A DNA stretch of 64,000 nt from Neoarius graeffei. Its lineage: Eukaryota > Chordata > Actinopteri > Siluriformes > Ariidae. The stretch is from positions 13,538,915-13,602,914 of the forward strand of contig NC_083572.1 of the NCBI RefSeq assembly GCF_027579695.1. Reading direction: 5' to 3'. Every line of letters starts with the position of its first letter. Position 1 is the first letter of the stretch. The notes beneath the pieces are model-generated. The model made no database searches. It was not told the DNA's origin and saw only the letters and a program-made list of their open reading frames with translations. This document shows, piece after piece, positions 13,335-63,182 of the stretch. The translations under genes were made by a program, and so were the position numbers.

Positions 13335-13612
13335 GGCTTTGGAAAGTTAAGCAGAGTCTGGAAATCAGAGTTGTTCTCTTCTGCCTTCTAGTGGATGCTA
13401 CGTAAGGTCACTGGAAAACAAGGAATAAATGATACCAAGTTGGCTAATGGGCACATCGAGGAAACAAAAATCAAATAAAAATAGCTCTTTGACCTTGAGC
13501 TACTTCTACACAATGTACTCCCAGCCAAAGGACTTTTGGGAAAGTAACCCAGCACTGAAAGCCCAGTGAAGAAGATTTAGCCTTTCAATCCAAAAAGGCA
13601 AAAAAAAAAAAA
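13335..13612 (+). other. s1pr5 5' UTR portion of coding exon (predicted)
   Basis: A polypyrimidine tract followed by GGCACCACAG forms a good 3' splice site ending at 13334. S1P receptor genes commonly have the whole CDS in one exon behind a 5' UTR intron. The start codon follows a 13-A run, giving AAAAATGA. Confidence 0.5.
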
Positions 13613-14743
13613 ATGAATTTCAGTGACTTGTATTCCGATTACCATAACAGTTGTATCATTAAGCTCCACTATGAGTACATAGGGAAACTAAACCTTGACA
13701 AATACAAAGATACTATCAAACCGGAAGCAATTGCATTCATCCTGGTTTGCGTGCTTATTGTTGTGGAAAACGCGATTGTGCTGGTGGCCATCTGGAAGAA
13801 CAAGAAGTTCCACATGCCCATGTATTACTTACTAGGCAACCTGACTCTGTCGGATCTGCTGGCTGGATTCACATACATGGTCAATATCCTCTCGTCAGGA
13901 CCCAGAACTCTTAAATTGACCCCTCTGCTTTGGTTTCTGAGGGAGGGCGGAGTCTTCATCACACTCGCCGCGTCAGTCATCAGTTTGTTGGCCATCGCCA
14001 TTGAGCGGCACATCACCATGGTGAAGATGAAGCCCTATCATGGCACTAAGCGCATCCGTATGTTTGCCTTGATTGGTGCCAGCTGGGCACTGGCTGCCTT
14101 GCTCGGTGTGCTGCCCATTATAGGCTGGAACTGCATACATAAACTACATCTGTGCTCCACCGTGCTTCCACTCTATGCCAAGAGCTACGTCCTGTTCTGC
14201 GTCACTGTCTTCAGTGCCATCCTGCTAGCCATTGTCGTGCTATACGGGCGCATCTTTCACACCGTCAAGAGAAATACAAAGAGGTTGGGCAGCATAAGGC
14301 GCAAGGGCATGGCACGCCGGTCACAGAAGTACATGGCCCTGCTAAAGACTGTTACCATTGTCCTGGGGGTCTTCATTGCCTGTTGGCTGCCACTCTTCCT
14401 GCTCTTACTGCTGGACTTTATATGCGAAACTGGTACTTGCCTCATCTTGTTCAAGGCGGACTACTTTCTGGGGTTAGCGATGATCAACTCGCTGATCAAC
14501 CCTATTATATACACGCTGACGAGTAAGGACATGCGCAAGGCCATTATTAAGCTGCTCTGTCGTCACTGTTTGATCACTGAAGATGGTCAGGTAAAGAAGA
14601 TCGGAGTACCCTTCCTGGAGTGCAGCTTAAGCAAACCTGAGCCAACTGTTCACCATGGCCTTGATACCACCATCTCCTCTGGGAATGGCACATCTTCCCC
14701 AATTCGAGTCATCGCCCCAAAGATCAAAGCTGTCAGACTATGA
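13613..14743 (+). CDS. s1pr5: Sphingosine-1-phosphate receptor 5 (class A GPCR)
   Basis: Plasma-membrane receptor for sphingosine-1-phosphate, signalling through heterotrimeric G proteins. The 376-residue frame is complete and intronless. Seven membrane helices are visible, the first at about residues 39-61 and the last at about 282-302. Family signatures: N-glycosylation sequon at Asn2, the head-group pair Arg110-Glu111 in WFLREGG, ERH at 131-133 in place of DRY, CSTVLPLYAK in the second outer loop, CWLP at 257-260, NPIIY at 296-300, and tail cysteines at 316 and 319 likely palmitoylated. S1PR5 is favoured over S1PR1/2/3 by LTLSDLLAG, NILSSGPRTLKL, LREGGVF, DYFLGLAMINSLINPIIYTLT and the tail GLDTTISSG, all closest to human S1PR5 as I recall it. 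Fish may carry duplicate s1pr5 genes; which one this is cannot be told here. No other gene lies close by. Confidence 0.93.
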   Translation: MNFSDLYSDYHNSCIIKLHYEYIGKLNLDKYKDTIKPEAIAFILVCVLIVVENAIVLVAIWKNKKFHMPMYYLLGNLTLSDLLAGFTYMVNILSSGPRTLKLTPLLWFLREGGVFITLAASVISLLAIAIERHITMVKMKPYHGTKRIRMFALIGASWALAALLGVLPIIGWNCIHKLHLCSTVLPLYAKSYVLFCVTVFSAILLAIVVLYGRIFHTVKRNTKRLGSIRRKGMARRSQKYMALLKTVTIVLGVFIACWLPLFLLLLLDFICETGTCLILFKADYFLGLAMINSLINPIIYTLTSKDMRKAIIKLLCRHCLITEDGQVKKIGVPFLECSLSKPEPTVHHGLDTTISSGNGTSSPIRVIAPKIKAVRL

Positions 14744-18104: not shown

Positions 18105-18197
18105 TCAGACTATTTCTTATTACTCTATCCACAGTCACTGGATATGAGCAATCGTGCGCTCTGATTGGCTACTGTACTACAAGGATATCAGCTCATA
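18105..18197 (+). repeat. KIAA1958/Crypton-like repeat, 5' part (copy a)
   Basis: The CTATCCACAGTCACTGGATATGAG-like core is shared with 26290-26320, 56450 (reverse) and 61490 (reverse). It continues across the composite element into 19203-19305, where an ATG with GGTGGAGGG begins the same exon type as at 29727. Confidence 0.55.
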
Positions 18198-18288
18198 TAG
18201 AGATCTTGCAGTCACGTGACCGGAAAGTACACAACCGGCATCTTGTCGGTCAAAAACACAGCTGAATACTGCTGCACTCGTGTACAGA

Positions 18289-18599
18289 ATGGATCAATTT
18301 CAACCGACGGACTACACGGCTCATTTTTCTAATGAACAGATAACTAGATATATGTCTAAAATAAACGATCTACAGATTTATGACCCTTATGGCTTACCGG
18401 ACGGAGTTTTCACGACCGGATATTGAACTGCCAGCGGAATACCCGGATGTGTATAATTACCTCATTAACTTTCCCTCGCTGTTCAGTGGTGAAGCACTGC
18501 GTGCTTATAAATCTCTGGACAGTTATCTTTACAGAAATTCAGGATTTGTCAGCGACTCAGATGTGGCATCTTGTAAACAAGAAAATCCTCATTGGATGG
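18289..18599 (+). pseudogene. YqaJ-associated-type transposon ORF, exon 1 (copy 1, broken)
   Basis: This is the counterpart of the intact frame at 62147-62476. The N-terminus (MDQFQPTDYTAHFSNEQITR) and the C-terminal stretch (PDVYNYLINFPSLFSGEAL, then KSLDSYLYRNSGFVS) are readable but in different frames. The break lies near 18415-18435, where copy 2 has extra sequence. It ends at the same GG|GTAAGT donor as copy 2. Confidence 0.6.
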
Positions 18600-18679
18600 G
18601 TAAGTCACTTAAGTATTGAGTATAGCACTGACCAGCCGATTATAGAATAGAATAAGGTAATTCCAAATCGTCCGTCTTG

Positions 18680-19010
18680 TTTACATGGATCTGGCGTTGG
18701 AGAGGTAGAGGCTTGGCAGTGGAGATTTGAGTGGCTGTTTTCTGAGCTTAGTCAACAGGCCGGCTCTGCCTGTAGCCTCGCTTTTGCTTCTGCTCCCGGC
18801 GCTGCCTCCTTCGCTTTGCTTCCGATAACAATCCACGGAGACCCCGCTGGTCTCGCTATCTCGTCCAGAATGTTGTGCATGCGATGGAAATCGCTACAAA
18901 CCATCATTTTCTGCTGGAAACCAATGTCCAGTAAGTCCATACGGTTGTAGTGGATATTGAAGTCCGGTACAGATGAACAACACGCAAAAATACACACAAA
19001 AAACAAAAAA
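18680..19010 (-). pseudogene. LINE ORF2 N-terminal fragment captured in copy 1
   Basis: The minus strand reads FNIHYNRMDLLDIGFQQK, then HNILDEIARPAGSPWIVIGS and a basic stretch; around 18690-18660 it resembles the start of LINE endonuclease domains (SLYLSNARSM). The same piece occurs in copy 2 in the same place. Confidence 0.5.
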
Positions 19011-19202
19011 CGTGCACAGGTAGCGAGAGCTTGTAGCCGCAGCCGTTGTAGTACAATTGTATATAGTAGGGTTTTCCAGAAGAAAAGGTAGAAGTAAAAG
19101 CAGAAGTAGAACCAGAAGTAGAAGGCGGAATATGGCGTTTGACCGACAAGATGGCGTCTGTCACAATCTGGATCAGCTGTGACGTCACATGCAAGTGCTC
19201 CA

Positions 19203-19309
19203 TACCATGAGTAGATGAAAACAAAATGGTGGAGGGGTGTTGCTGAACTAACTAAGGATGAAATTAAGACTGTACTCGAAAACAAAACCTCAAATTATCA
19301 AGTATTTAA
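19203..19309 (+). repeat. KIAA1958/Crypton-like exon start (copy a, continued)
   Basis: After the right TA of the composite element the sequence CCATGAGTAGATGAAAAC leads to an ATG at about 19225. One frame then reads AELTKDEIKTVLENKTSN, resembling N-termini of KIAA1958-like/Crypton-derived fish proteins. A frame shift separates the ATG from this stretch. It is cut at 19306-19309 (TTAA) by the next element. Confidence 0.4.
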
Positions 19310-59770: not shown

Positions 59771-61394
59771 ATAATTTCCTGATGCCAGTGTCGTGGGTCG
59801 GAAGTTTTAAGAGAGGTAACTTGATCTGAATAATAGCTCTTCTTAGCTCAAGCAAGAGCTCTTTGCGTAAGGTTCCGATAAAACTTCCAGACAGTTGGAA
59901 CCTGTTTGTTGAAGGCCTTTTGTCTCAGGCTCCTCAGTCATTTGATGTTTGGCGTCACCCAAGGTTTGTCAGTATTAGGTATTCTGATGGTTTTAGTCGG
60001 GAAAAAGGTTTCAATGGAACTTTTGAGCATGGCGTAGAAAGCATTAGCCTTTGCAGCTACATCTTCAGTATCATATACCTCTGACCAGTTGTGAGATGCA
60101 ATCCACCTGCCAGTCTCATTCAGCTGTCAAAGTTTTCTTCTTAGGTTTGTTATCTGTGACTTTGTTCTTTGGAATCCAAAGAACTGAAGAGTGGTCACTC
60201 AGGCCCACTGGCGGCAAAATCTGAGGACTGAGGTACACATTTCATATTGGTTATAATCAAATCCAAGATGGCATTACCCCTAGTATTGCTTTTCACCACT
60301 TGCAAAAAAAAAGACCTCCTCTACAGATATCTGAAATGTCTGTTCTATTAAAATCTCCAAGAAATGCAAGCCTGCAGTCAGGGTACTTAGTACACAGGTC
60401 ATCGGAGACAGTTAGCAGGTGGTCAACAAGAGTTTCCTGATGAGATAAGTTGGGGAGCAAGTAAATCCCACAGACAGCAATTGCTGACAATGGTCTAGGT
60501 AGACGACGCGGCCTAATCCAAATCCCCACACACATTCCAGGTTAGGTACTACATGTTCTGTCAGCTGTTTTGACGGTATGTCCTGTTTAACATAGACTGC
60601 TACTCCTCCCCCTCTCTTAACTTCTCTGTACTTGGAAAACAAGTTATAATCGCTTACTGCAATGGCAGATGCAGGATGGACTTTTGAAAACCGAGTTTCG
60701 GCCATTACGGCGATGTCCACTTGGTTCTGAGACAGAGTTATTTGGAACTCATCCAATTTATTGATCAAAGACCTTGGGTTACATAACATACGAGGGGCAC
60801 AGGCCTTCTTGTCAAGTTTGTTTGCATTGAACTGAACAGAGAATACGGGGCCTCGCCATAATATGTTGGAAAGTTGAGTTGTCTTGTTTCTCAAACGCCG
60901 ATTTGCATACGATGGTAGCGGCTTGGGTTAGGGACGCCAGCCTATTTCCAATCACAGTTTCAATTTTACGAATACGATTCCTACCTCCCTTACATCCTCT
61001 GGGTCTGGAGGACATCCGAAGCAGTCCAGCCTCCTTTAGGAATGCCGTTTCCTGTGGTAAAAGGGGCTGGGTAGTCGGCCAGTAAGCACGTAAGAAACTG
61101 GATGTGTATCTAAATAGCGTCACCATTGTTGACATACACCACCACAGTCACAATGAAGTACAGCACACAAAATCCAATCGTATGGTCGCTTAGCTAACTC
61201 AACTTCCTTCAGTTTGATCCAACTATCTTCATTCATTTTCACACAAACATTTAAGATATTCTAAACAAGCTAACTCTTAAAATTTTCACGACCAAACACG
61301 GAGCTGTATTTGCGCGTGGCCGCCCTTAGAAACACCACCTACCACACCTTTGTTTTTCAAGTAGAGTTTTTAAATTTTGTCCTCGGTTGGTTCA

Positions 61395-61515
61395 CCAAAA
61401 TGCTCCGCCATGTTTTTTTTCCCTCTACTCACGGTATATGAGCTGATTGGCTACTCTACTACTAGGCTATCAGTGCCTGCGAATACTCATATCCAGTAAA
61501 TGTGGATAGAATAGT
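61395..61515 (-). repeat. KIAA1958/Crypton-like repeat, 5' part (copy d)
   Basis: Minus strand: CTATTCTATCCACATTTACTGG ... AGCTCATACCGTGAGTAGAG ... then ATGGCGGAGCATTTTGGTG at about 61411 (MAEHFGEPTEDK). It lacks the composite element found at the equivalent point of copy a. Confidence 0.5.
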
Positions 61516-62146
61516 TAGGCTGTATAGACTAGTCTAACCCTGTGTCCGAAATCGCTCCCTACTCACTATATAGCGAGGACACCATTTTGTAGTGCTGTCC
61601 GAAACCTTAGTGAGGATTATTTATACCCTACATAGTGCACTCAAAGTATCCCACAATGCATCATGAAAAGTAGTGTACAACCGATGGTCACTAACCAAAG
61701 CGATATATCCCATCGTGCATTGTGGTCACGCTGAAAGAAATCAAATTAAAAGTCTCAAATTTGATTTAATAAAAGGCAGCGGCAAAGAAGAAAGTATTCA
61801 GCGTCGATTTAAAAGAACTGAAAGATGCAGGTACTTTGTATTGATTAGTGTCGGAAAGACGCTCAGTAGAATACAGATTTGTCACAAAAATACATGCATG
61901 TGTTTATTATTTTGAAAACCCACCAGCCGACTGATCTGGCACGTTTTAATTGTGTGACAGTAATGATGTAAATACCAGCGCGATGGACTAGGGTCTGAAA
62001 GCGTTTAATTTTACCAACGAGCTCACGATATAGTCCTCTATATAGTAATTCCCTATAGAGATCTTGCAGTCACGTGACCGGGAAGTACACAGCCGCCATC
62101 TTGTCGATAAAAAACACCGCTGAATACTGCTGCACTCGTGTACAAA

Positions 62147-62476
62147 ATGGATAAATTTCACCCGACGGACTACATGGCTCATTTTTCTAATGAGCAGATA
62201 ACTAGATACATGTCTAAAATAAACGACCTACAGATTAGTGACCCTTATGGCTTACCGGACATAGTTTTCACGACCGTGTCAGTGGATATGGAACTGCCAG
62301 AGGTGGAATACCCAGACGTGTATAATTACCTCATTAACTTTCCCTCGCTGTTCAGTGATGAAGCACTGCGTGCTTATAAATCTCTGGACAGTTATCTTTA
62401 CAGAAATTCAGGATTTGTTAGCCGCCCTCAGATGTGGCATCTTGTAAACAAGAAAATAACAATCCTCATTGGATGG
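62147..62476 (+). CDS. Transposon ORF exon 1, YqaJ-associated type (intact exon)
   Basis: A 110-codon exon from ATG 62147 to a GG|GTAAGT donor at 62476/62477, phase 0. It reads MDKFHPTDYMAHFSNEQITR, then YPDVYNYLINFPSLFSDEALR and AYKSLDSYLYRNSGFVS. The block PDVYNYLI...AYKSL is, as I recall, the N-terminal signature of fish and cnidarian proteins with a SWIM finger and a YqaJ-type exonuclease domain, accessory proteins linked to ISL2EU-type transposons. Those domains are missing; the exon is followed only by captured LINE sequence, so a functional product is unlikely. Copy 1 holds the same exon with its frame broken. Confidence 0.55.
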
Positions 62477-62544
62477 GTAAGTCACTTAAGTATTACTAGT
62501 ACTGATAGTAGATATATCAGTAGTATCTAGTATAGCACTGACCA

Positions 62545-62916
62545 GCCGATTGTAGAATAGAATAAGGTAATTCCAGCTGTAATTCCAAATCGTCCGTCTT
62601 GTTTACCATGGATCTGGCGTTGGAGAGAGAGAGAGGCTTGGCAGTGGAGATTTGAGTGGCTGTTTTCTGAGCTTAGCCAACAGGCCGGCTCTGCCTGCAG
62701 CCTCGCTTTTGCTTCCTCTCCCGGCGCCGCCTCCTTCGCCTGCCAGACCCGATAACAATCCATGGAGACCCCGCTGGTCTCGCTATCTCGTCCGGAATGT
62801 TGTGCATGCGATGGAAATCGCTACAAACTGTCATTTTCTGCTGGAAACCAATGTCCAGTAAGTCCATACGGTTGTAGTGGATATTGAAGTCTGGTACAGA
62901 CGAACAACACGCAAAA

Positions 62917-62975
<59 letters not shown>

Positions 62976-62990
62976 AAACGTGCACAGGTA
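62545..62990 (-). pseudogene. LINE ORF2 N-terminal fragment captured in copy 2
   Basis: The minus strand reads SVPDFNIHYNRMDLLDIGFQ, HNIPDEIARPAGSPWIVIGS, a run of Arg, then after a stop and shift SLSLSNARSMVNKTDDLELQ, the typical start of a LINE endonuclease domain. Only the 5' side of the LINE is present and there is no poly(A), which argues against ordinary retroposition. Confidence 0.55.
62918..62971. repeat. (CA)n microsatellite
   Basis: About 26 uninterrupted CA units; the matching place in copy 1 has only a few. Confidence 0.95.
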
Positions 62991-63182
62991 GGGAGAGCTT
63001 GTAGCCGCAGCCGTTGTAGTAGAATTGTATATAGTAGGGTTTTCCAGAAGAAAAAGTAGAAGCAGAAGGCGGAAATATGGCGTTTGACCGACAAGATGGC
63101 GTCTGTTACAATCTGGATCAGCTGTGACGTCACATGCAAGATCTCTATATAAGGAGTAGTGAACAAGTGAGCGATTTCAGAC

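Follow-up and report, generated by a model that had tools for sequence, protein, structure and literature searches.

A non-autonomous composite element with a reversed LINE 5' block, very probably an internally deleted ISL2EU-type transposon

ISL2EU elements are DNA transposons of the PHIS superfamily (PMC4482050, PMC9179366) that duplicate AT within an A/T-rich target and carry a DDE transposase with HTH and THAP domains alongside a second gene with a YqaJ exonuclease. In the portions of PMC4482050 used here, their target rule is given as A-AT-T, their average length as approximately 4.84 kb, and their termini as usually starting with GG. The nearest precedent that we found for a retroelement piece amplified within a DNA transposon is MER6/MER6A, described in the part of PMC6887750 consulted as a composite MITE with Mariner ends and a SINE body. 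The element analyzed here is similar in that DNA-transposon ends enclose a captured retroelement piece and the whole has been amplified together, and differs from MER6/MER6A in its ISL2EU ends, a retained parental exon and a captured piece that is a LINE 5' part. The comparison drew on parts of four papers (the three above and PMC12730594); no report of this composite was noticed among the open-licence PubMed Central papers listed. We consider it very probable that the composite is an internally deleted, non-autonomous ISL2EU-type derivative that contains a reversed LINE block and has presumably been moved by the transposase of its parent.

Two copies occur in the window (the whole analyzed stretch of 64,000 nucleotides), at the places where the first-pass annotation had put them (18198-19202 and 62056-63147), and they align end to end. 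The core of copy 1 (18199-19201, plus strand) has a parental right end and an exon broken by indels, while that of copy 2 (62057-63146, plus strand) belongs to a subfamily with symmetric ends. With the CA tract excluded, 58 of 968 aligned bases differ (6.0%), and the flanks of the two copies do not match each other. Divergence is similar from the left end (7/91, 7.7%) through the exon (18/314, 5.7%), the intron side (2/54), the LINE-like part (17/284, 6.0%) and the stretch upstream of it (2/53) to the right part (12/172, 7.0%). Copy 2 is bounded by a perfect 13-base inverted repeat, with TAGAGATCTTGCA at 62056-62068 (plus strand), which is also the left end in the parent regions L060-L064, and its exact inverse at 63135-63147 (minus strand). 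Subterminal repeats at 62089-62112 (plus) and 63083-63106 (minus) form a further inverted pair (87.5% over 24 bases). The suggestion that both copies share the same termini therefore stood for the ends of copy 2 and failed at the right end of copy 1, which has three mismatches to TAGAGATCTTGCA and matches instead the GGAGCACTTGCA-type right end of the parents. Approximately two chance occurrences are expected for the 13-mer of the inverted ends when up to two mismatches are allowed, and perfect inverted 13-mer pairs within 1.5 kb number 1,323 in the window vs. 0-5 in 20 simulated sequences. In this repeat-rich window, the inverted ends alone are weak evidence, and the case for a composite element rests on genome-wide matches.

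The source genome (2.34 Gb, 38 contigs) was searched with copy 2, as had been proposed, and 40 of 4,472 first-look candidates were scored. All 40 were at least 90% identical to the query and were spread over 22 of the 38 contigs, and 38 of them (copy 2 included) extended from query base 1-2 to base 1088-1092. Genome matches to exact 22-base probes numbered 2,975 (parental-type right end), 955 (symmetric right end) and 2,960 (left junction); the reversed-pattern controls of all three gave none. Each of ten sampled parental-type right ends (the first 10 loci listed, all on contig C1) belonged to a composite 79-87% identical to copy 2, two of these being incomplete on the left. The end-to-end matches and the recurrence of one junction bear out the idea that the whole composite was mobilized as a unit and, having ends in common with the parents, no complete transposase and a high copy number, it is a non-autonomous DNA transposon. 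That the window holds only two copies would agree with a segmental duplication rather than transposition, but their flanks are unlike, the scored copies lie on 22 contigs and empty sites exist (below); segmental duplication was thus rejected as their origin, and we regard it as having practically no chance of being correct.

An AT duplication flanks copy 2 at 62055-62056 and 63147-63148. For the target-site count, the core was taken as AGAG...CTCT or ...CTCC in 38 rows, in which the left end was unreadable in five and the right end in one (L022). Next to the core, AT stands in 32 of 33 readable left ends and 36 of 37 readable right ends; the exceptions are L024 on the left and parent L061 on the right. 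These counts should be read with the selection of rows in mind. Row choice or trimming fixed the A of the right AT for the fetched symmetric copies (the 19 that are readable) and for the 10 parental-type-right-end loci, and also fixed the left T wherever these 10 loci are readable on that side. Free of preselection were the right T in all rows and both left letters in the 20 fetched copies. Outside AT, the next base on the left is A or T; on the right it is likewise A or T except for three rows with G. When the flanks outside TAGAG...CTCTA are joined, the unoccupied site is restored at L009 (with one base different) and at L014/L027; unoccupied paralogues located in the window have four bases with a single AT at the place where the filled sites have two. 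L022, damaged at its right end, and copy 1 were left out of this comparison. The L009 copy is inserted in a Tc1 relic, and those at L014 and L027 in another repeat. The target rule is thus the A-AT-T of ISL2EU relaxed to W-AT-W. The TA duplication proposed in the first-pass annotation is contradicted both by AT at the ends and by the empty sites, and the composite lacks the TA target duplication by which Tc1/mariner elements are recognized, so that it was not assigned to that group. The flanks of copy 1 (18119-18197 and 19208-19294), L014 and L027 all belong to one repeat family, of which an unoccupied copy lies at 61349-61513. This family is likely a target hot spot, the exact position having been seen for L014 and L027 only.

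Autonomous relatives were found in the same genome. A search for the YqaJ family gave 71 matches, from which 30 loci were fetched. Six of the 30 contain exon 1 of copy 2, with 82-90% identity across 100-111 residues of protein and a stop in one of them, and also carry its left 496 bases at 88-94% identity (from base 7 in L043); a seventh locus, L050, has only bases 439-496, and five further loci contain distant exon 1 matches (35-38%). The open reading frame of the composite is accordingly the first exon of a YqaJ-type gene, as had been supposed. Both parental ends were recovered in four of nine fetched 10-kb regions, delimiting elements of 6,709 (L060), 8,247 (L061), 6,096 (L063) and 6,128 bp (L064). 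L059 and L062 have the left end only, L065 the right end only together with a bit of intron 1, L066 neither parental end, and L067 only a 48-base match at the region edge. In L064, Pfam searches identified YqaJ (1e-22) on the plus strand and DDE_Tnp_4 (4e-50), HTH_Tnp_4 (1.1e-17) and THAP (1.9e-13) on the minus strand; DDE_Tnp_4 and HTH_Tnp_4 were found also in L061 and L065, and THAP in L063 (2e-13). Longer relatives that combine YqaJ with a DDE gene and begin with the same left end, as had been anticipated, thus exist in this genome. In L063 and L064, THAP is encoded close to the right end on the minus strand, in a different frame from DDE, and the two would presumably be spliced together. 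By eye, L060 and L061 contain frames resembling Tc1, which look like nested insertions, and none was shown in L063 and L064. A symmetric composite is itself nested inside its own parent element (L061:4738-5780).

With a DDE transposase with HTH and THAP domains, a YqaJ exonuclease gene and the AT duplication, the parents have the proteins and target site of ISL2EU as far as these can be judged from sequence and from the portions of the literature used, and their right end starts with GG in four of five regions. They differ in a left end that starts with AG and in being longer (6.1-8.2 kb vs. the average of ~4.84 kb), while the composite differs further in encoding no complete parent protein and in carrying LINE DNA. 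A search with the L064 transposase, in which 94 of 482 candidates were scored so that all locus counts are lower bounds, found five full-length stop-free frames at ≥ 95% identity (query locus included), two further full-length frames with one stop each, and at least 16 loci with a match at ≥ 79% identity according to our own grouping of the listed matches. The composite, with its thousands of exact end and junction matches, far outnumbers this parent. Two other arrangements were noticed during these searches. On contig C11 (~37.98-40.32 Mb), 11 ISL2EU-like transposase matches, 45-52% identical to that of the parent, form a cluster with frames of 416-425 aa, 10 of the 11 without internal stops, which is perhaps a tandem or domesticated gene family. 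On contig C17 (~2.2-4.5 Mb), six YqaJ matches lie ~0.4-0.6 Mb apart, four with near-identical frames (548-549 aa), in what looks like a repeated large duplication.

Compared with its parents, the composite retains the left 496 bp (terminus, exon 1, splice donor and intron start) and the last ~80 bp. In copy 2, the left segment in common with the parents covers 62057-62551 (plus strand, 88-94% identical) and includes exon 1 of the YqaJ gene (62147-62476, plus strand) as an open frame of 110 codons followed by the GTAAGT donor (62477-62482, plus strand), intact as originally described. The left break falls at 62551/62552, where parents have CCAGCCGATT followed by ATGG (TTGG in L059) and copy 2 has CCGATT followed by GTAG. 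Parental sequence resumes at ~63067 with the right end segment (63067-63146, plus strand, 87-93% identical over 72-74 bases), and the ~515 bases between the two segments were not found in the parent regions, except in the composite nested in L061. The exon frame is kept in 16 of 22 aligned copies (the two window copies plus 20 fetched ones) and the donor in all 22. The very unlikely proposal that exon 1 was retained for a predicted function, as a short N-terminal peptide regulating the parent, draws on these figures and on a single stop change where 3.3 were expected, but the 47 synonymous and 107 replacement changes observed in the 22 copies, against 35.0 and 89.5 expected without selection under the element's own mutation spectrum, indicate at most weak purifying selection. 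From these changes, exon 1 looks carried along rather than maintained. Pfam searches with exon 1 and the LINE pieces returned nothing relevant, a PDB search gave a best E of 0.28 (chance level), and the predicted structure of exon 1 had a mean pLDDT of 44.3. In viral_contigs and genome_contigs, no relatives of the exon or the LINE piece were confirmed and the left end had no match.

The block between the parental segments contains a frame-shifted LINE 5' part on the minus strand (62574-63015), reaching up to the endonuclease start; its assignment is firm by BLAST for ~62575-62808 (to 62935 in one LINE), the remainder relying on multiple alignment. Three pieces were set against two LINE ORFs of the window (six comparisons, 500 shuffles each). 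For one of them, 21 residues align with the start of the endonuclease in the ORF at 60412-60927 (itself a Pfam endonuclease match below the curated cut-off); the score of 51 (shuffle mean 20.4) was equaled by none of the 500 shuffles, while the other five comparisons were unremarkable (33 to 368 of 500 shuffles as good). A very abundant LINE of the source genome, found with a LINE endonuclease query (150 scored of 15,121 candidates; ≤ 84% identity to the query among the matches listed), corresponds to the block up to the endonuclease start. Five genomic LINEs were aligned to the block through their 5' regions; identity is 71-76% over 236-371 bases, and every alignment extends as far as the junction. 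BLAST reaches base 265 of the block for four and base 138 for one, and by multiple alignment only, L078, L079 and L081 continue nearly to the LINE 5' end. The minus-strand piece is thus a LINE endonuclease-start fragment, as first read. The block differs from the abundant LINE in being only 71-76% identical, frame-shifted and without the LINE 3' part and poly(A), and no close donor was found among the five LINEs aligned. A retroposition product would have a 3' part with poly(A) and a duplication of its own; here there is a 5' part only, again in agreement with the first reading, and no direct repeat of ≥ 8 bases was found between 62470-62610 and 62860-63147 of copy 2. A separate later insertion of the LINE piece, the possibility that would have undone the composite, was rejected because all segments diverge to a similar extent and the same junction recurs at 2,960 exact places. 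As a separate observation, the abundant LINE seems to start with AAGATGGCGGCGCGCG (L078 and L079; one base different in L081), which resembles the AAGATGGC motif of the transposon's subterminal repeats. The LINE start and the subterminal repeats may possibly contain a common transcription-factor site, perhaps a YY1-like one.

These observations are best accommodated by a parent in which a YqaJ gene and a THAP/HTH/DDE transposase gene lie on opposite strands. A derivative of it would have kept the left end, exon 1, the beginning of intron 1 and, of the right end, the last ~80 bp, its gap being filled by a block with the reversed LINE 5' part. Because both ends survive, the parent transposase could mobilize the composite, and would excise it in trans, insert it at W-AT-W sites and duplicate AT, giving rise to thousands of copies. 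The first-pass annotation had envisaged captured pieces that were joined and then mobilized; movement as a unit and the foreign origin of the LINE block agree with this, but the element itself contributes the ends, exon 1 and the start of the intron, and a deletion derivative with a LINE insert or filler is the better description. The order of LINE entry and deletion is something that we infer, and two routes were weighed. With about an even chance, a full-length LINE inserted in a parent near the right end, and a single large deletion subsequently took away the LINE 3' part together with the parent genes as far as intron 1. In favor of this, the block has its LINE 5' side facing the right terminus and stops at the endonuclease start, with one breakpoint within the LINE and the other within intron 1. 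Against it, none of the nine regions showed a parent with a LINE so placed, the ~50 bases next to the right end (63016-63066) match neither the five LINEs nor the parents, and no LINE target duplication was found, although the deletion would remove one side of it. Alternatively, and with a probability that we place somewhat short of even, the LINE piece is filler copied from elsewhere by template switching during imperfect repair of an excision gap. Extra bases that repeat adjoining sequence are typical of template-switching repair, and ~22 such bases at the left junction (62552-62573) repeat GGAATTAC of the adjoining LINE end (minus strand); the near-reach to the LINE 5' end would then be a coincidence.

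The deletion derivative appears to have split later, with the right end mirroring the left exactly in the subfamily of copy 2. The terminal sequence is ...TGCAAGTGCTCC in parents and copy 1; in copy 2 and its relatives it is ...TGCAAGATCTCT, which inverts the left end exactly. The left end reads AGAG, which copy 2 has at both ends. The right end of copy 1 and of four parent regions is GGAGCA, and that of the fifth parent region (L061) is AGGAGCA. In a midpoint-rooted FastTree tree of 33 composites, the 22 symmetric-labelled copies are monophyletic (L022, with a damaged right end, being labelled by origin), and mean pairwise distances are 0.033 within the symmetric and 0.045 within the asymmetric set, the former chosen by closeness to copy 2 plus the copy nested in L061, and the latter comprising copy 1 and the 10 loci listed first on contig C1. 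The tree groups the symmetric-end copies as a derived clade, and three coincident changes suggest that the right end was converted by copying the left. Symmetric ends do not explain the abundance of the family, since exact symmetric right ends number 955 against 2,975 parental ones.

With parents and composites in one genome, this is a traced case of a deleted ISL2EU element picking up retrotransposon DNA, and as the same body occurs with asymmetric parental or symmetric derived ends, the effect of end symmetry on transposition is directly testable. More speculatively, and in our estimate improbably, the composites, many with an open 110-codon exon and donor and a reversed LINE 5' region, could supply first exons or promoters to host genes, and the switch to mirrored ends may have begun a second wave of copies. 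Elsewhere in the window, a single-exon reading frame of a rhodopsin-family receptor was observed at 13559-14743 (7tm_1, 3e-40).
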